Shown here piece by piece: positions 210 through 13,660 of a DNA stretch of 13,793 nt. A program made the position numbers and the translations under genes. The notes beneath the pieces are model-generated. The model was given only the letters and a program-made list of their open reading frames with translations. It ran no database searches and was not told where the DNA came from. Origin of the DNA: Thermoplasmatales archaeon ex4484_36 (GTDB taxonomy: Archaea > Thermoplasmatota > Penumbrarchaeia > Penumbrarchaeales > EX4484-36); NCBI GenBank assembly GCA_002254765.1, contig NJDV01000009.1, forward strand, positions 1-13,793, read 5' to 3'. How positions within the stretch are numbered: position 1 is the stretch's first letter; every line of letters starts with the position of its first letter.

Positions 210-2900
210 TCACAGCTCATCGTCTTCATCCCAAACGACATATCTTCTGCGCCTTCTGGGGGTTCTTTCCTCCCCCGGCTTTTTGAACGAGATCTCCTCA
301 ACCTCCGGAGGGGGGACGGAAGGTGCCTCTTCCTCTTCCGGGTATTCCTCCTCCGGCGCCTCCTCGATCTCACTCAGTTTTTCCTCTTCTTCGGGTATCC
401 CCTCACCAGCCCCCCTCATAAACTCTTTAAGGTCCTCCTCCTTGACCTCCACCGCTGCCGGCTCCACCGGGGACGGCATAGTCTCTTGGGTGGTCACCGC
501 TAGGGGTGCGGCAGCCTCACCCTCCACCATTTTCTTCAGCGTCTCCACGTCTGGCTCCACCCCGTAGAGCTCTTTGTACAGCTTCCTCTGTTCAGCGAAG
601 GGGTCCTCTACCATTCTCTTTTTCAACCTCATGTTGTAAATAAGTGCCCCTGCTACAGTTATTACTACCATGGCCACGATGGTAAGCGGGAGATATTCAC
701 CGAAGACCTTCTCCCTCAGATAGGTAAGCGCTGGGTATTTGGACCCAGGCTTGACCAGGACCTCAACGCTGTATTCAGGGGAGGTGTAGCTTGTCTGTCC
801 ATCCTCACAAACAACTCTGAGGCGGAAGCTGTATACCCTCGCTTTCGTATCCTTCTCCGGAGTGAAAGCGACTCTCAAGGGGTATACTGCCCCGGGGGGC
901 AAGGTGAGGGAGTAATCCTTGTAGTATAGTTCCAGTTTGATCCACTTCTCACCCGCCCCCTCCCCTTCAAGGTACACGGTCACGTTGTCGGACAGGTGTG
1001 CTTCATTTGTAATGGACACCTCCACCACGAGGGCATCTCCTCTCTCCAACGACCATCTTCTTGGACCAGTGAAGTTGATGCCGAAATCTATAACCTTGAA
1101 AATGTCTCTTTTTAAAGAGGAGAAGTTCCCACCGTCCCAGGCGAGGATCTCCACGTGGTATATGCCGTAGGTGAGGGGCTCGGTGAAGTTGAGGTTAGGG
1201 CTCTTGCACCATTTCCAGGGAACTATGTCTCCTGAAGCCCAGTCCCTGCCCACTTGAACAAGATAGCTCACTGCCTCCCCCTCCGGATCCACAGAACCTC
1301 CCCACGAGATCCCCGGGGCGGTGTAGGCGAAGAGGCTCTTAAGAAGTGGGCCGGGGGCTGGTGGGGGCAGGTCCCCGCTGGAGAGCACGGTGAGGTTGGC
1401 CTTGAGGACGTTGGAATTGGAGTGTGAATCATTGGCCACCACCTCCACGAAGTATTTGCCTACCCTCAGGTTTACGCTTGCCGAAACGTCTATGAAGTTG
1501 TACCTTCCGGTGCTGACCCAGTCCATCACAGTGGTTCCAAAGGTGGCTTCCAGGATTCTCACCCTGTAGGTTATAGTATCGTTCTCTATGTCCTCTGCTG
1601 GATCCCACCATATATGACCCTCTGTGAGCCTGAAGTGGAACCATATGGTAACGTCACCATGCTCTTCTACAGTGTAGTTTTCCACCTTCTTCCAGGGGGT
1701 GTAGGGGAGGACTTCTGAGTGACTATAACAGTATTCAATGGAAGAGATGTTCACCCCTGACACCTCAAGATCCGGCTGATAGAGGTCCCTATCGTAGACG
1801 ATAATTGAGACGTTTATGTCAGGGAATATCTGAGTTTCGTACGGGCTGGGCTGGAGGTTTCTGAACTTCACCTTTATCGTGTCTATCCAGATGTTCACAG
1901 GTGGTGACTCGTTCAGGTTCCCCACCCTGTCAGTGAACCGCCATTTCACCCAGTTGTACTTTCCTTCGTTGGCCTTGACGTCCAGGTAGGCGTAGACGCT
2001 TCCGTTGGGAAGAACGCTGACATGAGGAAGGTCTCCCACCCCAGTGTAAATGTCCGAGCCCAGCGTTTTGATGTAGGCTCTTATACTGCCGGGGGCTACT
2101 CCTGCCACCCCGATATCCTTTATCATGAGGTAGCATCTCACATAGGAGGTGTTGTACCAACGGGGGATTATAGGGCCGTAGTCCAGCACTATGGGCTTTG
2201 AGAGGTCAAGTATGGGCCCTGGGTATACAGGGGAGGTGAGGGGCTCTGTCATATCCCCTGACATCACCTCATAACGGTAGTAGATTCTGCCACTTCTCCA
2301 CTCCACTGTGGTGGTTGCAATCCAGAGGGAGCCCGCCGTATTGTCTCTCTCGCTCTCGGCGGGTCTCATGACGGTTGCCCCTCCTATCTGTTCTGTGCCG
2401 TTTTTGTCAGCGAAGAGCAGGAGGCGGGGATAGCCGGCTGAGGGGTCATCACCATCTATGTCCCTGTACCAGAGGGTGAAGGCGAACTCCGTTTCGTTTG
2501 TCCCAATCTCGGGGGTGAAGCCCCTGTCCTTGAAGATGGGCGGGCGGTTCTGGCCGGTCAGGGTCTCGCTGTAGCGGGCGAAGTATATGTCCGAGCGTGT
2601 GAAGAGCTCGTCTCTGTGGTCAGCCCACACAACAAGGGGCCTTCCTATGGAGTTGAAGGCGAGGTGGGGATCCTCCTGCTTTGTCTCGTCGTCGGCGGTG
2701 CCAAGCGTCCGCTGGGTGTCGTCCACCCTCCTGGCGCCCGTCCATGTGGTGCCGTTGTTTATCGTGTAGGTGAAGTAGATGTCTCCTTCGTCGTGAGAAC
2801 GGTCCACCCAGGTTATTCCCACCATCCCTGGGGAGAAGACGGCCACCCTGGGGTTTAGCTCAAGGCCTCCTTCAGGGCCGTTATAGGCTAGCATGTTCAT
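210..2900 (-). CDS. BNR-repeat surface protein, C-terminal fragment with membrane anchor and acidic tail
   Basis: This 896-residue frame is the downstream part of a broken surface-protein gene. Homology-like sequence continues upstream of the first ATG in the same frame to about 2990 (GSVYIVWSDNR, then an Asp-box-like STTRDGRNF), so ATG 2900 is probably internal and not the true start. The N-terminal 100 residues hold at least one more sialidase-type repeat (NNGTTWTGARRVDD). The middle is beta-rich with many N-x-S/T sites and Ig/FN3-like stretches. Near 600-700 there is a CARDB-like segment about acidic and polar interactions with extracellular partners. A single hydrophobic helix at about 736-754 is followed by K/R residues, giving an outside-in topology. 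The 140-residue tail is strongly acidic, then carries RRRRR and ends WDEDDEL. It is probably a cell-surface binding protein; the ligand cannot be read from sequence. Confidence 0.7.
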   Translation of the reverse strand: MNMLAYNGPEGGLELNPRVAVFSPGMVGITWVDRSHDEGDIYFTYTINNGTTWTGARRVDDTQRTLGTADDETKQEDPHLAFNSIGRPLVVWADHRDELFTRSDIYFARYSETLTGQNRPPIFKDRGFTPEIGTNETEFAFTLWYRDIDGDDPSAGYPRLLLFADKNGTEQIGGATVMRPAESERDNTAGSLWIATTTVEWRSGRIYYRYEVMSGDMTEPLTSPVYPGPILDLSKPIVLDYGPIIPRWYNTSYVRCYLMIKDIGVAGVAPGSIRAYIKTLGSDIYTGVGDLPHVSVLPNGSVYAYLDVKANEGKYNWVKWRFTDRVGNLNESPPVNIWIDTIKVKFRNLQPSPYETQIFPDINVSIIVYDRDLYQPDLEVSGVNISSIEYCYSHSEVLPYTPWKKVENYTVEEHGDVTIWFHFRLTEGHIWWDPAEDIENDTITYRVRILEATFGTTVMDWVSTGRYNFIDVSASVNLRVGKYFVEVVANDSHSNSNVLKANLTVLSSGDLPPPAPGPLLKSLFAYTAPGISWGGSVDPEGEAVSYLVQVGRDWASGDIVPWKWCKSPNLNFTEPLTYGIYHVEILAWDGGNFSSLKRDIFKVIDFGINFTGPRRWSLERGDALVVEVSITNEAHLSDNVTVYLEGEGAGEKWIKLELYYKDYSLTLPPGAVYPLRVAFTPEKDTKARVYSFRLRVVCEDGQTSYTSPEYSVEVLVKPGSKYPALTYLREKVFGEYLPLTIVAMVVITVAGALIYNMRLKKRMVEDPFAEQRKLYKELYGVEPDVETLKKMVEGEAAAPLAVTTQETMPSPVEPAAVEVKEEDLKEFMRGAGEGIPEEEEKLSEIEEAPEEEYPEEEEAPSVPPPEVEEISFKKPGEERTPRRRRRYVVWDEDDEL

Positions 2901-2971
2901 GGTGAAGTTCCTACCGTCCCTGGTGGTGGAGTAGTAGATGTCGTAGGAGCCGAGCCTGTTATCGGACCAGA

Positions 2972-2990
2972 CTATGTATACACTGCCAGG
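2972..2990 (-). other. Frameshift site joining the two surface-protein fragments
   Basis: Upstream of this site the minus strand reads NDPDLAV and then stops; from about 2990 downward the -1 frame reads PGSVYIVWSDNR, the next part of the same repeat type. The junction lies in CCTGGCAGTG (2981-2990), which encodes LAV in one frame and GS in the other. The -1 frame is closed by TGA at 3024-3026, so the change of frame must fall between about 2974 and 3023. No classical slippery heptamer is seen, which favours a small deletion or a sequence error over programmed shifting. Confidence 0.65.
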
Positions 2991-3880
2991 TCCGGGTCGT
3001 TCTGGGAATAGGGTTCCAGATCGTCATTTACCCTTCTCTCAGGGAGGAAGGTATCGCCCCTGTCGTAGGAATAGGGTTCCAGATCGTCGTTTACCCTTCT
3101 CTCAGGGAGGAAGGTGTCGCCCCTGTCGTAGGAGACGGCCATGAAGATGCTGAAATCCCCCTCCCTCTGGTCGCTCCACACTATGAAAACTTTCTCTCCG
3201 TAAACAGCGATCCTGGGTCCGTACTGGTCCACACTGAGACCCCCGGAGTTCACCCTCTTCTCCCCTATCCACGTCACACCTCCGTCCTCAGATCGGGCGA
3301 AGTAGACGTGGAACTTGCCACCCTCTCTTTTGTCAAGCCAGGTAAGGTAAAGGGTGCCGTCCTCACCCACAGCCAAGGAAGGATAGATGGCATCTCTTAT
3401 TGAGGTGTCAACCCTTCTGTGGGTGGAGAAGTTCACATAGTCCTCGCTCCAGACCACGTATACGTGGTAGTAATGGACCCCAATGTAGATCTCCTGGTCA
3501 TCGCTGTAGGCTACGTAGAGAGTGCCGTTGGGTGCGAAAACGGCGGTGGGGTACATTTGGTTGGAGAAGTCGTTGCTTGAATTCAAATCCCTTCTGGAAT
3601 CGTCCACTTGTATCTTTTCACTCCAGGTGTAGCCGCAGTCGGTGGAGCGCGCCATTGAAATATCCCAGTTGGTGTAGAAGTAGTCCTGATATATCACGAA
3701 GAGGTCGTCCATTCCCCTAGTGAGGATGACCGGGCGCCTCTGATGGCTGCCTGTGGAGTTCCAGTTCACAAGGATGCTGCTGGAGAAGCTGTCTCCAGCG
3801 CCTTCGGTGTAATGGGGGATAAGGTAAAGTCCAGACAGCAGAAGGGTAAATAAAACGGCGAGGCCGAGCATCTTTCGCAT
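2972..3880 (-). CDS. BNR-repeat surface protein, N-terminal fragment with signal peptide
   Basis: About 302 residues from ATG 3880, chosen because a strong GGAGGT (3887-3892) lies six bases before it; ATG 3883 is the next best, and upstream 3916 would add a polar stretch before the signal. The protein opens with M-R-K and a hydrophobic core of about 15 residues (signal peptide), then a beta-propeller made of sialidase-type Asp-box repeats: STDCGYTW, SEDGGVTW and SYDRGDTF (twice). The final repeat is duplicated exactly at protein level. The frame then stops at 2972 (AVYT, stop), in the middle of another repeat that continues in the -1 frame. With 210-2900 this would be one protein of about 1,220 residues. 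The BNR fold occurs in sialidases and many glycan- or protein-binding proteins; catalytic sialidase residues are not evident, so a binding role is as likely as an enzyme. Confidence 0.7.
   Translation of the reverse strand: MRKMLGLAVLFTLLLSGLYLIPHYTEGAGDSFSSSILVNWNSTGSHQRRPVILTRGMDDLFVIYQDYFYTNWDISMARSTDCGYTWSEKIQVDDSRRDLNSSNDFSNQMYPTAVFAPNGTLYVAYSDDQEIYIGVHYYHVYVVWSEDYVNFSTHRRVDTSIRDAIYPSLAVGEDGTLYLTWLDKREGGKFHVYFARSEDGGVTWIGEKRVNSGGLSVDQYGPRIAVYGEKVFIVWSDQREGDFSIFMAVSYDRGDTFLPERRVNDDLEPYSYDRGDTFLPERRVNDDLEPYSQNDPDLAVYT
3007..3132 (-). repeat. 63-bp tandem duplication, two copies, in frame
   Basis: Copy one is 3007-3069 and copy two 3070-3132. They differ at two positions only. Both differences are silent (AAT/AAC for Asn, GAT/GAC for Asp), so the encoded 21-residue unit, containing the Asp-box YDRGDTF and RVNDDLEP, is repeated without change. 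The unit corresponds to less than one full propeller blade. Confidence 0.9.
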
Positions 3881-3897
3881 CATATTACCTCCAGATG

Positions 3898-3931
3898 GCC
3901 AGGGGCTTATAAGCATGGGGAATATAAAATA
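3898..3931 (-). promoter_or_regulatory. TATA-like promoter of the surface-protein gene
   Basis: On the minus strand an AT-rich ATATTTTATATTCC (about 3918-3931) precedes the GGAGGT-led ATG at 3880. A start of transcription 25-28 bases downstream would fall near 3900 and give a leader of about 20 bases containing the Shine-Dalgarno. A second candidate, CTTATAAG (about 3905-3912), is closer. This suggests that the gene can be transcribed apart from uvrC, whose stop is only 25 bases before the longest possible start. Confidence 0.45.
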
Positions 3932-3940
3932 TTTGGCAGG

Positions 3941-4705
3941 CTACTTTGAGCCTGAATCCCCTCTCCTCCCCTCTAGGTCTTCAAGATAGGTCTTAAGCCG
4001 GCTTGCCACTTCCCGGGGGAGAGCGGCCCTTATGGATATCTCCTCTACTGAGGCTTCACCGAGCTCTGCAAGGGAAGGGAACTCCTCAAGAAGCCTCTTA
4101 GCTCTCACCTCTCCTATCCCCTTCACCTCCTGGAGGAGGCTCTTCAGCTTCCCCCGTCTTCTTCGCAGATGGGAGACAGCGAACCTGTGTGCCTCATCCC
4201 TGACGGCCTCAAGGAGGAGAAGTCCCGGTGAGGATCGGGGAAGAAGGAGCTTCTCCCCCCTCTCAGTATATATAATCTCCTCCCTCTTGGCAAGGGCGAC
4301 TACGGGTGGTCCTTTGAGGCCCATTGACTCCCTGGCCCTCACGGCGGCGGTAAGCTGTCCTATCCCGCCATCCACCAGAAGCAGGTCGGGAGGTCCTTCG
4401 CCTTCCCTGACCACCCTCTCAAGCCTCCTCCTAACCACCTCCTCCACCGCTGCGGGATCGTTTATGCCTCTGCTCTCCTTGATCAGATACCTTCGGTAGA
4501 AGCTTCTAGCAGGTCTGCCGTCCAGAAAGACTACCAGGGACCCCACAGTGTCCAGTCCGCGGATATGGGAGATGTCCACCCCCTCAATCCTTAGAGGGGG
4601 TGAGGGTAGGGAGAGCACCTCCATAAGCTCCTTCAGCCCTCTCTCGGCAACCCGCGAGGGCAGGCGCCTTTCTCTAGCCTCCAGCGCTGCCCTTAAATTT
4701 CTCAT
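3941..4705 (-). CDS. uvrC: UvrC C-terminal half: RNase H-like nuclease plus helix-hairpin-helix
   Basis: This 254-residue protein is the C-terminal half of UvrC, which makes the 5' incision in nucleotide excision repair after UvrB has loaded on the damage. The RNase H-like domain has its catalytic residues: D44 in VDISH, D112 in LLLVDGGIGQL and H173 in RDEAHRFAVSH. A tandem helix-hairpin-helix DNA-binding region follows (about 190-245, KGIGEVRAKRLLEEF). Its ATG overlaps the stop of the N-terminal half (ATGA, 4702-4705) and no Shine-Dalgarno is visible before it, so it would depend on translational coupling. The first residues, NLRAALEARERR, match the region just before the nuclease domain; the roughly 40 residues that normally precede this in UvrC are absent from both halves. 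The family assignment is firm; whether it is a true separate subunit or a broken gene is open. Confidence 0.9.
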   Translation of the reverse strand: MRNLRAALEARERRLPSRVAERGLKELMEVLSLPSPPLRIEGVDISHIRGLDTVGSLVVFLDGRPARSFYRRYLIKESRGINDPAAVEEVVRRRLERVVREGEGPPDLLLVDGGIGQLTAAVRARESMGLKGPPVVALAKREEIIYTERGEKLLLPRSSPGLLLLEAVRDEAHRFAVSHLRRRRGKLKSLLQEVKGIGEVRAKRLLEEFPSLAELGEASVEEISIRAALPREVASRLKTYLEDLEGRRGDSGSK

Positions 4706-5616
4706 TGGGAGACTAAAATAAGTGGTGGCATTCCAGAGACCCTGGAGTAGTACTCCTCCAGGAAGGTCTCAATAGCAAGGCAGCCTTCCACCCCTTCTCT
4801 ATTCAGGAAGAAGGGTTCAGCGCCAGCAACCCTGCCCCCCCTCACCTTGAGGAGGTAGACCGCTTCGCCTCCCTCCGACGCCTCTACGAGGTCAAAGTCC
4901 TTAACAGGGGCTGTTATGGAGGCGCCCTCGCTTATCCTCTCAATGCCTCTTATGACGTCCCTATAGTAAGCCGCCAGCTCAAACTTCTCCTCCTCCGATG
5001 CCCTCCGCATCTTTTCCCGAAGCTCTTTGAGCACACCTGCAGTGTCTCCGGAGAGGAACCTCTCAAGGTCCTTCACGTTCTTTGAGTACTCCTCCTCGTC
5101 GGCCTTCCCCGTGCACGGGGCGGTGCATCTACCTAGATGTGCTTCCATACAAGGCTTGTTTCTCCTGCGCAGAACCCAGCAGTTCCTCACAGGGAAGAGG
5201 GCCCTCAGATACCTGAGTGCTACCCGGAGGTCTTTCACACCGGAGTAGGGCCCGAAGAGCTTCCCTTGCCTTCCCTTGAACCCCCTCACGAGGAAGAGTC
5301 CAGGAAACCTCTGGTGGGTGGTCAGAAGGAGATAGGGGTAGGACTTGTCATCCTTCAGCTCCACGTTGAAGGGAGGTGTCATTTCCTTTATAAGGCGCTC
5401 CTCCAGAAGGGCGGCTTCCATCTCTCCCCGGGTGAGTATGCATTCAACGCTGCTTGCCCGGCTACATAGCCTCCTCTCTTTCATGTCTGAGGATTTGAGG
5501 TGCTGGGAAACCCTGTTGCGTATATTTCTCGCCTTACCAACGTAGAGGGGGCGCCCACCCTCGTCTCTGAAAATGTATACCCCCGTGCCTGTGGGGAGCT
5601 CCCTGGGGTCTATCAT
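4702..5616 (-). CDS. uvrC: UvrC N-terminal half: GIY-YIG nuclease, Cys cluster and UVR domain
   Basis: This is the N-terminal half of UvrC, which cuts 3' of the lesion and contacts UvrB. The GIY-YIG nuclease is at about 8-90 (GVYIF, LYVGKA, then R-N-R). Four cysteines at 146, 156, 164 and 168 (C-x9-C-x7-C-x3-C) match the UvrC cluster known to bind 4Fe-4S in E. coli. The UVR motif, a UvrB-binding helical hairpin, is at about 193-228 (MRRASEEEKFELAAYYRD). The protein ends after the following beta domain (PPLILVSQ) at 304 residues, against about 600 for whole UvrC. I start it at ATG 5616: TATATA at 5640-5645 is about 27 bases upstream, which fits a leaderless message; TTG 5628 is the longer alternative. 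Archaeal uvrABC genes are generally regarded as acquired from bacteria. Confidence 0.9.
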   Translation of the reverse strand: MIDPRELPTGTGVYIFRDEGGRPLYVGKARNIRNRVSQHLKSSDMKERRLCSRASSVECILTRGEMEAALLEERLIKEMTPPFNVELKDDKSYPYLLLTTHQRFPGLFLVRGFKGRQGKLFGPYSGVKDLRVALRYLRALFPVRNCWVLRRRNKPCMEAHLGRCTAPCTGKADEEEYSKNVKDLERFLSGDTAGVLKELREKMRRASEEEKFELAAYYRDVIRGIERISEGASITAPVKDFDLVEASEGGEAVYLLKVRGGRVAGAEPFFLNREGVEGCLAIETFLEEYYSRVSGMPPLILVSQ

Positions 5617-5637
5617 CAATCTATACAAAGAGGGGGG

Positions 5638-5648
5638 GATATATAACG
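5638..5648 (-). promoter_or_regulatory. TATA box of uvrC
   Basis: GTTATATATC on the minus strand is centred near 5643, about 27 bases before ATG 5616. This is the spacing expected for an archaeal leaderless transcript and it supports that start over TTG 5628. The stretch 5649-5783 between it and the tRNA holds no convincing gene. Confidence 0.5.
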
Positions 5649-5783
5649 GATTTGGAGTCCCTCATAGGATCTTCTCCAGGTGGTAGCGGGGCCTTTCTAT
5701 ATGAGTGGAGCCGCATTCGGGACATCGGGAAATGTAGTGCAGTGGTCATTGTACTTACCCCAAAGGTGCAGAATGAGAAGAAG

Positions 5784-5971: not shown

Positions 5972-6541
5972 GTGAAGAAGAGGGAGAAAACTTTAACCCG
6001 TATGACCCTTTCCCCCTCTGTGTACGTGCTGGACACCTCCGTAATACTCACATACTCCGGCGCACTGGGTGCGCTCCTTAAGGAAGGCGTAGCTATTCCC
6101 CCATCGGTGCTTGATGAGGTTCAGTTTGAGCCCCAGCGAAGTCGCCTCAGGGAGCTTGTAGAGGCGGGGGCAGAGGTCATCCCCCCCGCAGAGGAGGCGA
6201 TCAAAAAGGTCAGGGAGACCGCCCGAGCTGCGGGAGAGCACCAGATGAGCGAAGCAGACATCAAGGTCGTGGCACTTGCACTCCAGCTCGGCGCCACCCT
6301 CTTGACCGAGGACTACTCCGTACAGAATGTGGCCCAGCTTCTAGGAGTTCCCTGGAGATGTCTCACAACCAGAGGTATAAGGAAGGTTTATATCTGGGGG
6401 GTGAAGTGTGTGGACTGTGGTAGAGTCTTTGAAAAACCCCCTGGAGAGGTCTGCTCTATTTGCGGGGGAAGACTCAGGCGCTGGAGGCTCAAAGCTAAGG
6501 GAAAGCTTAATTTCAATAAAGAGTTACACCAGAGTGGATAA
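5972..6541 (+). CDS. nob1: Nob1, PIN-domain endonuclease for 16S rRNA 3' maturation
   Basis: The 189-residue protein has a PIN nuclease domain (about 17-130) and a C-terminal zinc ribbon, the architecture of archaeal Nob1, which cuts the 3' end of 16S rRNA in pre-40S-like particles. Acidic residues of the PIN site are D21 (VLDTSV), E49, D96 (SEADIKVVALAL) and D114 (TEDYSVQN). The ribbon cysteines are C146, C149, C161 and C164, followed by a basic tail suited to RNA binding. The length is near the archaeal norm. The start is uncertain: GTG 5972 would be leaderless behind the TATA box, while ATG 6002 removes ten basic residues and leaves a more typical short lead before the first strand. The lipoprotein gene follows after 16 bases on the same strand. 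Confidence 0.9.
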   Translation: MKKREKTLTRMTLSPSVYVLDTSVILTYSGALGALLKEGVAIPPSVLDEVQFEPQRSRLRELVEAGAEVIPPAEEAIKKVRETARAAGEHQMSEADIKVVALALQLGATLLTEDYSVQNVAQLLGVPWRCLTTRGIRKVYIWGVKCVDCGRVFEKPPGEVCSICGGRLRRWRLKAKGKLNFNKELHQSG

Positions 6542-6557
6542 AACTGGAAGTGATCCC

Positions 6558-7151
6558 ATGGTGAAGAAGGCATCCATGGCTGTTGCAGCTCTGATCGTTG
6601 TGGCAATCCTTGCAGTAGCCGGCTGCGGTGAAAAGGAAGTAAAAAGAATAAGGCAGGAGGAGGAAGGGGTAGGGGAGACTCTCACTTTCGATGGGCATCT
6701 TGACAACCCCGAGTGGGGCGGGGCCCAGAGGACGCAGGACGTCTATGAAATAGACTTCGCCCAAGAGGCCAACGTGACCGAGGGCAGGGAGGTGCAGCTA
6801 ACCAGGCTCACCGTCAACCTCAGGTGGGTAGATGACCATTCGGGGACGGACTCCCAGGACGTCACCGACCCCTTCATGGTAAATATCACTGTAGGGAACG
6901 TTACCGTTTCCTCTGGCTTCCGCGACACGGGTCAGATTACCTTGACGCTTCCCAATAATCAGGTCACTGATAAAATGCTCGCAGAGAACACCACGGTGCA
7001 GATAACGGTTTACATAGGTGACTGCGGCACCTATGCAGCGCCGCCGTTCATCTTCGGCAGGCTTGTGCGTTACTACGATACGGGGAACGATTACACAATG
7101 ACCGTTGACTATTCTTACCTTGAGGTCTGGTACGAGACTAAGAACGCCTGA
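6558..7151 (+). CDS. Secreted lipoprotein of unknown function
   Basis: The start is ATG 6558, preceded by GGAAGTGATC (6546-6555), a near-perfect match to the archaeal 16S anti-Shine-Dalgarno; upstream codons in this frame overlap nob1 and are not protein-like. The 197-residue product opens with MVKK, a hydrophobic stretch and the lipobox AVAGC, so C23 would be the lipid-bearing first residue of the mature protein outside the membrane. A charged linker (KEVKRIRQEEE) leads to a beta-rich domain with TFDGHLDNPEW and several N-x-T/S sites (NVT, NIT, NTT) that could be glycosylated. There are few cysteines, one in GDCGTY. I do not recognise the family; the fold is probably an Ig-like or jelly-roll beta sandwich. 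It may share the nob1 transcript, without any evident link in function. Confidence 0.8.
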   Translation: MVKKASMAVAALIVVAILAVAGCGEKEVKRIRQEEEGVGETLTFDGHLDNPEWGGAQRTQDVYEIDFAQEANVTEGREVQLTRLTVNLRWVDDHSGTDSQDVTDPFMVNITVGNVTVSSGFRDTGQITLTLPNNQVTDKMLAENTTVQITVYIGDCGTYAAPPFIFGRLVRYYDTGNDYTMTVDYSYLEVWYETKNA

Positions 7152-7169: not shown

Positions 7170-8540
7170 TCAGAGTAGCTCCTTGAGGGTCACCACTGGG
7201 AGTCCCCCCTCTCTGTCAATGGTGGGCACCATGACCCCCGTTGGGGGTTTCACACCGTAGAAGAGGGGTGTATTGTCAATCAGCCTGTATTTGAAGACGA
7301 TGTCTGAGAAGTTGGCAACGGCCCCGGCCAAACTCAGATCCGGGCGCGCAATGGAGATGCCGAGGTAACCTCGACTTCTGATAAATACCCTGGTCCGCAG
7401 GAGATCTTGGGGGGTGGCCGTGGTTCCCATTCGGTACTCCAGGGTGTCCAGTCCAACAAGGTCCATAAGGGGTCTTGAGTACCCCTGGGTGAGCTCTTCA
7501 AGCTCTGTTCTGTAGAGCTTCTGCGAACTCCTATCTGTCATGGGGATTACCAGGGGATTGCCCGGGGAGGCCCTGAAGTAGTCCACGAACCTGACGTGCT
7601 CCTCTAATATACCCTCGGGGAGAAATCTGCTCAAGTCGCTGTAGATGCTCTCTGGGGTCTCCCCCCCAGGGGGCGTTATGAAGACAACACCGTCGTTCTG
7701 GATGAAGTTTAGGATAATGGGGCGCAGGATAAGCATAAGCATCTCTTCGCTGACCTCGAAGGAGGCCTCTATCATTATATACTGGCCCCTTTTGAACCCG
7801 CCGTTTAAAATATCATCGAGCTTTGGTATCCCGCTGGAGTAGCGGTTGGGAGGGTGGGGTGTTTTCTTCCACATTATCTGTTCCTCTGGCTTGAGGACAG
7901 GCATCTCAGAGAACACGCGGAAGTTTCCGCCCCGCAAACTGAAGAGATACTTTCTCCTGCCTATTTCCACTCCCCTCATTTTAATGATCTCAAGCTCCCT
8001 TACCTTTCTCCCGTCAACTTCAGTGTGACCCAGACTAACTATACCTCCCACAAGAGGGTCGAGGAAGGATTCTCTCGAGGTCTCCTCCACGATGATGAGG
8101 GAGAGATTCTCCCTCTGGACAACATCAAGGGTGGCCCTCACCATCCTTGAAGGGTTCTCGAACCTCTCAAGGAGGCTGTCAATAGTATCTATCATCACCA
8201 CCTTTGGTTTAAAATCGCTTTTTACAAGGTCAGTGAACTCCCTCAAAAACCAGTTGGGGTCAGTTATCTTAGAGTTCTTGTCAAAGAGCTTCGCCCTCTC
8301 CCTTAGCGGGGACCCCTCCTTCAGATGGGGGAATTGAAGGGAGAGCTGGTCCTCCTCCACCCGGGTGAAGAGCATGACGCCTCTCTCATCTTTTGTAAGT
8401 TGTCTCACTATCTCGATTGCTAGGAGGGTCTTTCCCGTTCCCGTGCCTCCCTTAAGGAGAAGGACCTCTCCTGTGTGCGTTCGGAAGAACTGCTCTATTT
8501 CCACAGGTACATTCTGCACGACCGGATAAGCTTCTTTCAT
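7170..8540 (-). CDS. GvpD/KaiC-like RecA-fold ATPase with degenerate second domain
   Basis: A 456-residue protein with two RecA/KaiC-like halves. The first has Walker A GGTGTGKT (31-38), an E-E pair after a strand at 62-63 as in KaiC, and Walker B VVMID ending at D118. The opening (VPVEIEQFFRTHTGEVLLLKGGTGTGKT) resembles the P-loop domain of GvpD, which in haloarchaea represses gas-vesicle genes. The second half starts like a KaiC domain (SSGIPKLDDILNGGFKRGQYIMIE, about 235-258), but where the P-loop should be it reads EASFEVSEEM, so it probably cannot bind ATP in the normal way. ATG 8540 is preceded by GAGGT (8547-8551). No gas-vesicle genes are nearby, so a regulatory or signalling ATPase is the safest reading. 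It is divergent from a small protein gene and ends 18 bases from the convergent lipoprotein gene. Confidence 0.8.
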   Translation of the reverse strand: MKEAYPVVQNVPVEIEQFFRTHTGEVLLLKGGTGTGKTLLAIEIVRQLTKDERGVMLFTRVEEDQLSLQFPHLKEGSPLRERAKLFDKNSKITDPNWFLREFTDLVKSDFKPKVVMIDTIDSLLERFENPSRMVRATLDVVQRENLSLIIVEETSRESFLDPLVGGIVSLGHTEVDGRKVRELEIIKMRGVEIGRRKYLFSLRGGNFRVFSEMPVLKPEEQIMWKKTPHPPNRYSSGIPKLDDILNGGFKRGQYIMIEASFEVSEEMLMLILRPIILNFIQNDGVVFITPPGGETPESIYSDLSRFLPEGILEEHVRFVDYFRASPGNPLVIPMTDRSSQKLYRTELEELTQGYSRPLMDLVGLDTLEYRMGTTATPQDLLRTRVFIRSRGYLGISIARPDLSLAGAVANFSDIVFKYRLIDNTPLFYGVKPPTGVMVPTIDREGGLPVVTLKELL

Positions 8541-8624: not shown

Positions 8625-8822
8625 ATGGACTATAGGGATATGGAGGAGGCACTCAAAAAGGTCAGTATTTTTGGGGAGGGGATGTTGAAAAGCAAAGCAC
8701 TTGACGAGATGGTCTACCTCTCCCTGGTAGACCTCCTAGTCAGAGGTGTTATGATATATGATCCCGATGAGGACACCTTTGTTCTGAGGGGGTCAGAAGA
8801 TGAGCCCTGCCACGAGGTATAG
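8625..8822 (+). CDS. Small hypothetical protein, 65 residues
   Basis: The start is ATG 8625, which follows GGTGTGAAG (8616-8624), a plausible ribosome site, and a TATA-like box about 50 bases upstream; codons before it belong to the promoter gap. The 65-residue product is acidic and looks helical at first (DYRDMEEALKKVSIFGEGML, then DEMVYLSLVDLLVRG), then has a probable beta hairpin (GVMIYDPDEDTFVLRG), which recalls a truncated winged-helix or a small adaptor, but I do not recognise the family. It is divergent from the GvpD-like ATPase and shares its promoter gap, so it could be a partner or regulator. Its last 30 bases overlap the end of the convergent OPT gene. That this is a real gene is likely but not certain. 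Confidence 0.6.
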   Translation: MDYRDMEEALKKVSIFGEGMLKSKALDEMVYLSLVDLLVRGVMIYDPDEDTFVLRGSEDEPCHEV

Positions 8823-10883
8823 GGCCACCAGCGTTCCCATTATCGCCTCACCCACTATGAGTCCCGTGGCCATCATATAGGTGTCGAGAAGCTTGAGAGT
8901 CTTCATCCTCTCATCCCCGCCGTAGCGGGGCTCAAGGACATATTTCTCCCATGAACTCCTCCATAAACCACCCACAAGTAGCGGGACTTGAAGTCCCAGA
9001 GGGAGGTACATCCCCAGGCCAAAGGCGGTCCCCATACCTATAGCAAGTTCTATCAAAACCCCCACCACGATCCCCGCTGCAAATATGTTCCAGTCAACGG
9101 CCCCCACCACAAGCCCTTTTGCGAAGACTACGAAGGCGTGGGCCTGGGGGGCTGGCAGGTTGAGCTCTCCTTTTGCAAGGCCATAGGAGAGGAAGGCGGC
9201 GGAAAGACCTGAAACTATAGCCCCTGGTATGATTCCGGGGGTTAAGCCTCTCACCAGGTCGTGGGGCCTATTCCCGCAGTAGAGCCCATTCTTGAAATTG
9301 AGGATGGTGTCCCCGGACATGGAAATGGCTCCGCCGAAGACGGTGGTCCCTATGAGGGACATTATGAGGAGCTCACTCCTGCTCATCCCAAAGAGCTTGA
9401 AGGTGAGTATAAGAATAATAAGTACCAGAAAGGACGTAGCTGAGACGGGTTCGGTTCCTGTCTCTCCCATGACCTTGACCGCTATAGCGCCCAGAATGAA
9501 GGTGAGGCTGATCAGCAAAATGGCGAAGACGAGGGAGGCGAAGAAGGGGAAGCCGCCTGCCCAGAATACCATAAAGACGATGAGAAGCGTCACCACTAAC
9601 ATGACCTTGATGTGCTCCGCCGGCCACTCGTACCAACCCTTCCTGGGGATATACGAGGCCCTAGCCCCCTCCCCGGAGCTCTCAACCTTTCTGAGGTCGG
9701 CAAAGACCGTTTTGAAGACGGGTATCATCTTCAGAAGTGCTGTTATCCCTCCCCCGAATATGGTACCTATAGCCATTATCCTGGCTAGCTGGTATGCCGC
9801 AAGGGCTGGGGAGGTGGGGACTCCCTCATAAGGAGTGCCCGCAAGGAGTCCTCTCTGTGCGAGTGGCCAGAACATACTCATGTCCGCAACGTCGAATACC
9901 TCCCCCGTGTTGAAGTATATGTACGGAATGTGGCTGGCCACTGCGAGGGGGACTACGAAGAACCACGTGAACATTGTACCTAGGAATATTAGAAAAGCTG
10001 TCCTCGCCTTCATGAACCAGCCTAGCCCAAATTGGATGGGTATGAGGCTTATAGAGGCGACGGTGTATTTTGCAGGCTCCGGGGTGAATATGATGTCCCC
10101 GGCAGCGTAGTGAGGACCACCGAAGAGGTGGTCCAGGATAGAGCGTCCTTTGATGATGGGAAAGTCTCTGAAGAAAGTGAAGAGAGCGGTAGCAGTAATC
10201 CAGGAGACCGTCATTTTGAAGGAGCGCTTGGCCTGTTCCCCTGCTTCGGAGGAGACCACCCTGGAGAGGTCCAGCATCTTCACGGTGGCCTCGAAGCCGG
10301 GGGTGGGCAGGGGATCCTCCACAAGCCAGATTCTGCGGAAAACGATAAAGTACATGACCCCCAGGATGCCCGAGACCATGGTGGAGAGGATGGATATGGT
10401 AAGTATTCTTGTCATAGGCAGATGGGTTATGAGGGGGGAGCCCCCCACGTATTCTGACGGGTCATAGGCGAGAATAAATATGGCGGGGAAGGTGAAGACG
10501 AAGCCAGTGCAGATCATCGCTGCGCCATTGGAGGCGGTGGCAGCCACGTTGAGGGTGGGCGGGTTCCATCTCCACGCCATCCCTAGGATGTAGATGATGT
10601 ACCAGGAGCCCGCCACTACCATCCCCACTTTGAGCCCTACATACTGGTTTATCAGGGCGAAGAGTGTACCGATAGCTATGGCAATCCAAATCTTTTTCCA
10701 GTCCCATGCCGGGATGTCAAAGGCTTCTCTGCGGTTTTTCTCGTCGAGATACTGTTCCAGGGCCCCGGTGTTAAAATTAGCGAACATCTCGGGGTCGAAC
10801 CAGTTTAGGGTCCCCTCCTCGATCTTACGTATGCCAGAAGGAGTGAGCGGTTGACGGTAGATGGATCTCTTAACCCTAGCCAT
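8793..10883 (-). CDS. OPT-family oligopeptide transporter
   Basis: An integral membrane protein of about 696 residues of the OPT family, which imports short peptides or metal chelates with protons. After a polar N-terminus of about 60 residues come some 14 or more hydrophobic segments. Family-like stretches include INQYVGLKVGMVVAGSW near the first helices, the GETGTEPVSATSF loop, and TVFGGAISMSGDTILNFKNGLYCG. The longest frame begins at 10925, but TTTAAGTAAA on the minus strand is centred only about nine bases before that ATG, so transcription would begin downstream of it. ATG 10883 (MARVKRS) follows GGTGGTC at about the right distance and is preferred. The gene is divergent from purS and its end overlaps the small convergent gene. 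The substrate cannot be read from the sequence. Confidence 0.88.
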   Translation of the reverse strand: MARVKRSIYRQPLTPSGIRKIEEGTLNWFDPEMFANFNTGALEQYLDEKNRREAFDIPAWDWKKIWIAIAIGTLFALINQYVGLKVGMVVAGSWYIIYILGMAWRWNPPTLNVAATASNGAAMICTGFVFTFPAIFILAYDPSEYVGGSPLITHLPMTRILTISILSTMVSGILGVMYFIVFRRIWLVEDPLPTPGFEATVKMLDLSRVVSSEAGEQAKRSFKMTVSWITATALFTFFRDFPIIKGRSILDHLFGGPHYAAGDIIFTPEPAKYTVASISLIPIQFGLGWFMKARTAFLIFLGTMFTWFFVVPLAVASHIPYIYFNTGEVFDVADMSMFWPLAQRGLLAGTPYEGVPTSPALAAYQLARIMAIGTIFGGGITALLKMIPVFKTVFADLRKVESSGEGARASYIPRKGWYEWPAEHIKVMLVVTLLIVFMVFWAGGFPFFASLVFAILLISLTFILGAIAVKVMGETGTEPVSATSFLVLIILILTFKLFGMSRSELLIMSLIGTTVFGGAISMSGDTILNFKNGLYCGNRPHDLVRGLTPGIIPGAIVSGLSAAFLSYGLAKGELNLPAPQAHAFVVFAKGLVVGAVDWNIFAAGIVVGVLIELAIGMGTAFGLGMYLPLGLQVPLLVGGLWRSSWEKYVLEPRYGGDERMKTLKLLDTYMMATGLIVGEAIMGTLVALYLVAGLIF

Positions 10884-11048
10884 GAGACCACCGATTAAAA
10901 AGGAGTTCAGGCTTTTGGATTGCATCTATTTACTTAAACCTTTGTGAATCCTCTCTAAAGCGGCTTGATTCTTGCGGCGAGGTGTAGGTTAAAATTAAGT
11001 ATTCTGCCCCTTTAAAGTGTAGCGAGACAAAAAATCGGGGGAAGTTCA
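10884..11048. promoter_or_regulatory. Divergent promoter region between the OPT gene and purS
   Basis: On the plus strand TTAAAATTAA (10989-10998) and TTTAAAG (11011-11017) are TATA candidates for purS; the first would leave a leader of about 30 bases containing GGGGGAAG (11037-11044), the second a leader of about ten. On the minus strand TTTAAGTAAA (about 10929-10938) fits the OPT gene started at 10883. No riboswitch or long hairpin is evident. Confidence 0.45.
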
Positions 11049-11312
11049 ATGTACTGGGCAGATATCCGCGTTGGTTTCAAAAAGGGAGTTACGGACCCAG
11101 AAGGGGCGAACACCGCCAAGGCGCTGAGGCTGCTGGGCTTCGAAGAGGTTGAAGAAGTGAAGTTCTCCAAGTTCTACTCAGTGAAGCTGAAGGTTGAAAG
11201 TGAGGAGAGGGCAAGGGAGCTTGCTGAGAGGATGTGCGAGAAGCTCCTTTCAAACCCAGTCATCAATTTCTATGAGATCACAATACGGGAGGAGAAGGAG
11301 GAGGTTCCGTGA
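11049..11312 (+). CDS. purS: PurS subunit of FGAM synthase
   Basis: The 87-residue protein matches PurS, the small dimeric subunit that bridges PurL and PurQ in the formylglycinamidine ribonucleotide (FGAM) synthase of archaea and Gram-positive bacteria. Typical features are the opening strand followed by [19 protein letters not shown], the [10 protein letters not shown] strand, and the end of the fold [12 protein letters not shown]. Length is normal for the family. ATG 11049 follows GGGGGAAG (11037-11044). The stop overlaps the purL start by four bases (GTGA, 11309-11312), so the two are translationally coupled at the head of the operon. The last eight residues (REEKEEVP) are charged and probably disordered. 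Confidence 0.95.
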
Positions 11313-13660
11313 GGTTCAGGAAGCTCTACCCAGATGTTGAGGTCTACGAGATCCCCATAACGGAGATGGGGGATGAGGAGCTCAAAGAGGTTAGTGCGGA
11401 GATGAGCCTTGGCCTTTCATTGAAGGAGATGAAGAACATCGCAAGTTTCTTTCGTGAACGGGAGGGCAGAAACCCCACAGACATCGAACTGCAGGCCCTA
11501 GGGCAGGCGTGGTCCGAGCACTGCTGTTATAAGAGTTCCAAGGCGATACTTAAGGCTACCATATTTGGGATTGAGGCTCCCCAGGCCATACTTGCAGTGA
11601 AGGAGGACGCAGGGGTGGTGGAGTTTGATGATGAGTGGGCATACGTGACAGCCCTTGAATCCCACAACCATCCATCGGCTATAGTGCCCTACGGCGGCGC
11701 TGCCACGGGCGTGGGTGGGATTCTGAGAGATGTTCTCTGTATGGGCGCACAGCCCATAGCTCTCACTGACCCGCTCTTTTTTGGTCCCCTTGACTATCCT
11801 TCGAATAGGCTTCCCCGGGGTGTGAAGCACCCCAAATACATAACCGCCGGGGTTGTAGCTGGAATCAGGGATTACGGAAACCGCGTTGGTATACCCACCG
11901 TGGCCGGGATGGTTGCCTTCCACCCCGGATACGTCGGCAACCCCCTGGTGAACGTGGGATGCATAGGTATGGTGAGAAAGAAGAAGATTGTCAGATCAAG
12001 GGTGGGGGGTGTGGGGGATTATTTCGTCCTGGCGGGAGGAAGGACGGGAAGGGATGGCATCCACGGGGTGACCTTTGCCTCCGCCGACTTGACGGGGGAG
12101 TCGGAGGAGAGGGATGTAGGTGCGGTACAGCTGGGTGACCCGATAGTCAAGGAGCCCCTGATGCATGCGGTGCTTGATATAAATGAGAAGGGACTGATAA
12201 CCGGTATGAAGGATCTAGGCGGGGGAGGACTCTCTTGCGTCTCTGGAGAGATGGCGCTGGCTGCAGGGCTTGGGGCCGAGATAGAGCTGGACAAGGTCCT
12301 TCTCAAAGAGGAAAACATGGCCCCCTGGGAGATATGGGTCTCGGAGTCTCAAGAGAGGATGATGGTGACGACGAAGGAGGGCAACCTAGCCAAGGTTTTA
12401 GATATCTTCTCCAGCTGGGACGTGGAGGCCACTGTGATCGGGAGGGCTACAGAAGGCAAGCGCATCCGGGTCTTCTGGAAGGGTAAGAAGATCTTGGATA
12501 TGGACCTGGAGTTCCAGACCCGGGGTCCGCTCTACTGCAGACCTTATCTGGCGGTTTATAAGGAGAGGCGAGCAGAGGACCAGCTGCCCCCCATGCCAGA
12601 GGATCTCAACAATGTCTTTCTCCAGATGCTTGAGGACCCCAACCTGGCCAGTAAGGAATGGGTCGTGAGGCAGTACGACCATGAGGTTAGGGGAAGGACG
12701 ATATTAAAACCCCTTCAGGGGGATGTGGTGAGGGTTACCCACGGGGACGCCTCAGTCCTGAAGCCCCTTGAGGACTCCTATAGGGGGCTGGCACTTACCA
12801 CGGACGTGAACCCCTACCTCTGCGAGAGGGACCCCTACTGGGGAGCGGCCTCAGCGGTGGACGAGGCCGTTAGGAACCTTGTGTCCGTGGGCGCAAGGCC
12901 CCACTCTTTTAACGACTGTCTTAACTTCGGAAACCCTGAGAAGCCCGAAAGGCTGGGGGACCTTCGTGAGGCGGCTAGAGGTCTTGCCCACGTAGCAAGG
13001 GCCTTGGGGATACCCTTTGTCTCGGGTAATGTTTCCCTCTACAACGAATCCGAGGTCGGGGCCGTGCCTCCCACACCTACAATCTTTGCCGTCGGCATCG
13101 TGGAGGATGTGCGACGGGCTACCACAGCGGACTTCAAGGAGGAGGGAAACCTCATTTACTTGGTGGGCAGAACCCATCAGGAGATGGGGGGCTCCTTATA
13201 TTACAGGATCCTAGGTTGGGAGGGGGGAGTGGTTCCCCAAGTGGACACGGATCTCCTGAGAAGATCAACGGAGGCCCTGCTGGAACTCAACCGCCTTGAA
13301 CTCTTAAGGGCGGTCCACGACCTATCGGAAGGAGGGCTTGCCGCCGCCGCTGCTGAGATGGCCTTTGGAGGAGGCGTAGGAGTTCAGCTTGACCTCTCTG
13401 TTATTGAGGGGGGGAGGGATGATGTTATTCTCTTCTCCGAGTCCAACACACGCTGGCTCCTTGAGGTTCAGCCGGAGGGGACCGAGGGGCTGGAAGAACT
13501 TCTCACAAAACATGGCGTCCCGTTCATGAGGATAGGAAGCGTGGGAGGTGAGGAGCTTCTCTTTACCCGGGGTGGGAGGGAGCTTATGAGGGTTCCACTG
13601 GAAGAGGCTTGGCAGAGGTGGCACAGCTCAATATACCGACTCGTGGGGGTGGGAGAGTGA
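11309..13660 (+). CDS. purL: PurL, FGAM synthase large subunit
   Basis: The 783-residue protein is the small-type PurL, which converts FGAR, ATP and ammonia to FGAM in purine synthesis, with ammonia supplied by PurQ. Motifs in order: [12 protein letters not shown] (about 68-78), ESHNHPS with H119 and H121 and the glycine-rich GGAATGVGG that follows, a DLGGGGLSC loop in the first half, and in the second half [26 protein letters not shown] and [12 protein letters not shown]. It has the expected two-lobed AIR-synthase-like layout and lacks a fused glutaminase, in keeping with the separate purQ. The start is GTG 11309, overlapping the purS stop; the stop overlaps the purQ start in the same way. 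The length is slightly above the 720-750 common in bacteria. Frame and motifs are intact. Confidence 0.97.

Follow-up and report, generated by a model that had tools for sequence, protein, structure and literature searches.

A split uvrC in a Thermoplasmatales draft genome is probably an assembly artefact

Separate nuclease sites in the N-terminal and C-terminal parts of UvrC are known, and Cho is a UvrC homologue that has the N-terminal nuclease half only. PMC8837605 names the GIY-YIG and RNase H domains of UvrC. In the window, by which we mean the whole 13,793-nt stretch of the draft genome of Thermoplasmatales archaeon ex4484_36 (G000) that was analysed, uvrC occupies two frames that keep the domain order of the UvrC family (TIGR00194) and are 99% identical to an intact member of it, the protein P0242, but this copy lacks a net 109 nt, its frame is broken and part of the domain PF22920 is gone. 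The first frame resembles Cho in matching NF007833 over residues 10-186, yet its 84 bits lie far under the cut-off of 367 and place it outside that family; among NCBIfam models it matches uvrC best (259.7 bits). Because of this low score, and because the near-identical relative is a full UvrC, we ruled out a Cho protein accompanied by a separate nuclease. The uvrC of the window is a broken copy of an ordinary UvrC gene, and nothing new in biology was found.

The preliminary description of this DNA held that uvrC is divided between two frames overlapping as ATGA, and this is borne out on the minus strand (Table 1). Its claim that the catalytic residues and motifs are kept in both halves also stands. 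GIY-YIG, UVR, RNase H endonuclease and HhH all score above their Pfam cut-offs across the two frames (HHH_5 at 28.7 bits against a cut-off of 27), and D44, D112 and H173 of the second half correspond to D400, D468 and H529 of P0242, which are invariant in a 35-sequence alignment. PF22920, which lies between UVR and the endonuclease domain, is incomplete, running over profile positions 9-67 of 116 in the window and 9-115 in P0242. UvrC is a single chain in P0242 and in G001, a genome of the same genus, whereas the window needs two frames to encode it. Searched with P0242 at E <=0.001, the whole draft yielded no second uvrC copy besides these two frames.

Table 1. Features of the window, and the broken uvrB gene elsewhere in the same draft (positions are those of the window unless another locus is named)
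Feature	Position	Strand	Description
uvrC, N-terminal frame	4702-5628	minus	308 aa; TTG start; ends PPLILVSQ, with a TGA stop just past the deletion point; GIY-YIG, Cys cluster, UVR motif, first part of RNase H-like domain PF22920
uvrC, C-terminal frame	3941-4705	minus	254 aa; starts MRNLRAALEARERR; RNase H endonuclease domain PF08459 and HhH
uvrC, deletion point	4702-4708	minus	net 109 nt of intact relatives absent; frame changed
BNR-repeat gene adjoining uvrC	210-3916	minus	two frames here; single 1271-aa frame in G001
PIN-domain protein (PIN_6)	5972-6541	plus	C-terminal Cys motif
KaiC/GvpD-like P-loop ATPase	7170-8540	minus	
OPT-family transporter, then PurS and PurL-like genes	8793-13660	minus, then plus	
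uvrB	L102 (draft contig C30) 4740-6466		two frames, about 60 residues missing; the family model also sees two frames

P0242, retrieved with the 584-aa UvrC of G001 as protein query, is a 610-aa metagenome protein with a single intact chain, and its 90% cluster holds 35 sequences. The first window half is identical to its residues 13-320 at 304 of 308 positions and the second to its residues 357-610 at 253 of 254, and between the two matching parts P0242 carries 36 extra residues. Five of the 562 compared residues differ. One of these is due to the TTG start, a Leu codon in the window that was translated as Met; another falls on the junction. This leaves three real differences, and on account of these P0242 may come from another strain. 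Relative to P0242 the loss is 109 nt, made up of the 36 codons and a single base from the His codon before them, and the same net loss is found relative to G001, whose uvrC is one frame of 584 aa from its ATG (61% identity). Since the ATG of the second window frame is the codon of the internal Met357 of P0242, both the ATGA overlap and the missing Shine-Dalgarno sequence are plausibly by-products of the deletion. Two readings had been offered in the preliminary description, a two-subunit UvrC and a deletion that broke the gene: the first is not supported, as close relatives carry a single intact uvrC, and the second fits. Another protein, P0121 (174 aa; longest contig 6534), is an exact N-terminal piece of this uvrC that ends short of the junction and so carries no information on it.

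The same description took the missing stretch to be about 40 residues of linker. A stretch is indeed missing, but it amounts to 36 residues and one base, and it is part of a folded domain. PF22920 spans residues 262-366 of P0242, and in an AlphaFold2 model of P0242 built from 35 sequences (mean pLDDT 83.4, pTM 0.46, with an uncertain arrangement of domains) the lost residues 321-356 comprise a helix (325-336), a strand (341-344) and the start of a further helix (347-369), with pLDDT of 88-92 over residues 321-350 and 77 over 351-360. Solved UvrC structures identified from the sequence are confined to residues 22-109 and 377-603. Going by the predicted model, the loss would damage a folded RNase H-like domain, not trim a flexible linker.

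Is the split shared by relatives? Of a set of 57 genomes comprising G000 and its near relatives, 33 match the first half, and the 32 besides G000 carry the gene in one frame of at least 519 aa. Across the phylum set, P0242 finds matches in 155 of 292 genomes (154 of 291 when the window's own is set aside), and none of these 154 other genomes holds two adjacent split uvrC frames. The search was repeated for 15 genomes, including all others that gave two or more matches, and there the multiple matches were fragments on separate contigs or one frame of one contig (G214). Among the matches listed in the phylum search, 16 contain one stop codon, each genome's matched frame still being at least 517 aa, and four genomes (G100, G110, G198 and G218) give short single-frame matches. 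The split is thus not conserved, and the two-frame form has so far been seen in the G000 draft only. Half-length UvrC proteins do appear in the protein database, in two listings of 787 and 266 matches (120 of each shown, and the scoring for the 787 limited to the 7997 candidates sharing most words). Among the matches listed, some such proteins come from long contigs, for example P0030 (230 aa, contig 637,095) and P0230 (271 aa, contig 982,073), and given these a genuine split UvrC may occur outside this draft. A literature search on split or truncated UvrC and on uvrC pseudogenes found nothing.

How, then, did the gene come apart? Judging from sequence comparison, we consider it likely that the split is an artefact of the draft and that the organism has an ordinary single-chain UvrC. 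The loss would have arisen in assembly, when fragments were joined across missing sequence; with the 109 nt, 36 residues of the RNase H-like domain would have disappeared and the frame would have shifted, and the two open frames that remain would overlap as ATGA by chance. Such an origin seems the most likely because frame-changing losses of about 90-270 nt, together with a join between two levels of identity, hit other genes of the same draft.

That draft has 1,023,425 bases in 111 contigs and is 54.1% complete. Our sample comprised 41 of these contigs, among them that of the window (412,349 bases), and, from G001, 60 of about 250 contigs (345,463 bases, of which 17,299 in six contigs read as N). 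The longest non-overlapping frames of either genome were mapped by tblastn onto the DNA of the other, and counterparts of at least 50% identity were taken. On the sampled contigs, 9 of 52 G001 genes undergo a frame change in G000, against 0 of 55 in the reverse direction. The sample was not blind, as uvrC and uvrB were the reason for including the G001 contigs C202 and C67; once these two are set aside together with the window and C30, breaks remain in 6 of 48 genes, against 0 of 48 in the other direction (Fisher p 0.026). The genes of loci L048 and L115 show shifts of only 5-34 nt, which may be natural, and when they too are left out the counts are 4 of 46 and 0 of 48 (p 0.054). The net losses among the nine broken genes are 193 nt in uvrB, 109 nt in uvrC and, in others, 89, 155 plus 8, 158 and 266 nt; the BNR-repeat gene, also one of the nine, has a net gain of 47 nt. 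These counts replace a cruder tally of split genes (20 rows for 70 G001 proteins, 4 for 72 in reverse), which contained repeat listings and maybe shadow frames.

The uvrB gene is instructive in this regard. On C30, nucleotide identity to G001 switches from 77.4% to 96.1% between positions 5597 and 5600, at the uvrB break, and a further 115 nt present in G001 are absent at 6902. Contig C14 lacks 155 nt in a region sharing about 93% identity with G001. In the remaining sample, alignments of at least 300 nt to G001 show 65-80% identity, and one of 288 nt shows 85%. Because two identity levels are joined inside uvrB together with a lost stretch, faulty assembly is suggested there. The switch on C30 could alternatively reflect recombination with a relative, but recombination alone would leave the lost stretch and the broken frame of uvrB unexplained. 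The uvrA gene has only weak matches in the draft (best E 3.6e-9). Microhomology at five junctions yielded no common pattern.

In the BNR-repeat gene next to uvrC, 63 nt are duplicated in tandem at 3005-3133, near-perfectly and in frame, and a 16-nt loss near 2975 follows by difference from its net gain. We counted 12 near-exact tandem duplications in the 412 kb of sampled G000 sequence and none in the G001 sample; 46 other loci totalling 264 kb gave 8. Perfect duplications make up 10 of the 12 in G000 and 1 of the 8 at the other loci, and a length that is not a multiple of three is found in 10 of the 12 and 3 of the 8, respectively. We had asked whether the number of duplications betrays contig ends left unmerged and dropped this idea, since there is no excess over other loci. 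That the window's own duplication is imperfect and in frame speaks against an assembly origin.

The main rival explanation is that the sampled strain truly lacks the 109 nt, so that its uvrC would be a null allele while intact alleles persist in other strains. This strikes us as unlikely, but several observations are in its favour. If P0242, with its three real differences, belongs to a slightly different strain, intact and broken alleles could coexist and the strain in the window could carry a true deletion; both uvrC pieces are otherwise undamaged, as would fit a recent event; and the uvrC junction, with 61% and 65% identity to G001 on its two sides, is unmarked by the kind of identity switch seen on C30, which is also a point against faulty assembly. 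On the other hand, uvrB, the BNR-repeat neighbour and genes on other contigs are broken alike, also when the chosen contigs are left out, the uvrB break falls at a switch of identity, and it is improbable that so many genes, undamaged in other respects, would truly decay at the same time. It is this pattern in the rest of the draft that makes a deletion introduced in assembly likelier than a biological one.

A working two-chain UvrC that divides the 3' and the 5' incision between its chains we regard as very improbable. The recognised catalytic residues and motifs kept in both halves would suit it, but a near-identical protein exists intact, none of the 154 other matching genomes of the phylum has adjacent frames, the second start is an internal Met codon, and the gap takes a helix, a strand and the beginning of a helix out of one folded domain of the model. 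That the sampled strain alone encodes two chains rebuilding a shortened but active excinuclease, with a single chain otherwise the rule in the population, would be more improbable still. The production of one protein by programmed frameshifting or re-initiation at the ATGA overlap, the one feature that invites it, is hardly credible, as its product would be short of the 36 residues all the same and recoding is unnecessary in the intact relatives.

Reading the locus as a probable assembly error avoids a false claim of a two-subunit UvrC. It also bears on the draft as a whole: several of its genes are broken by lost stretches and it contains at least one suspect join, so that further split or truncated genes met in it call for reads before they are taken as biology.

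A few smaller observations concern the surroundings of the gene. P0242 starts 12 residues upstream of the window's uvrC frame (window 5620-5665); in this interval, compared by eye, the upstream C run is seemingly one base longer in the window than P0242 implies. Since a TATA-like stretch is present there, the upstream start is probably a choice of gene prediction. The PIN-domain protein encoded beyond it resembles an archaeal Nob1-type ribonuclease.
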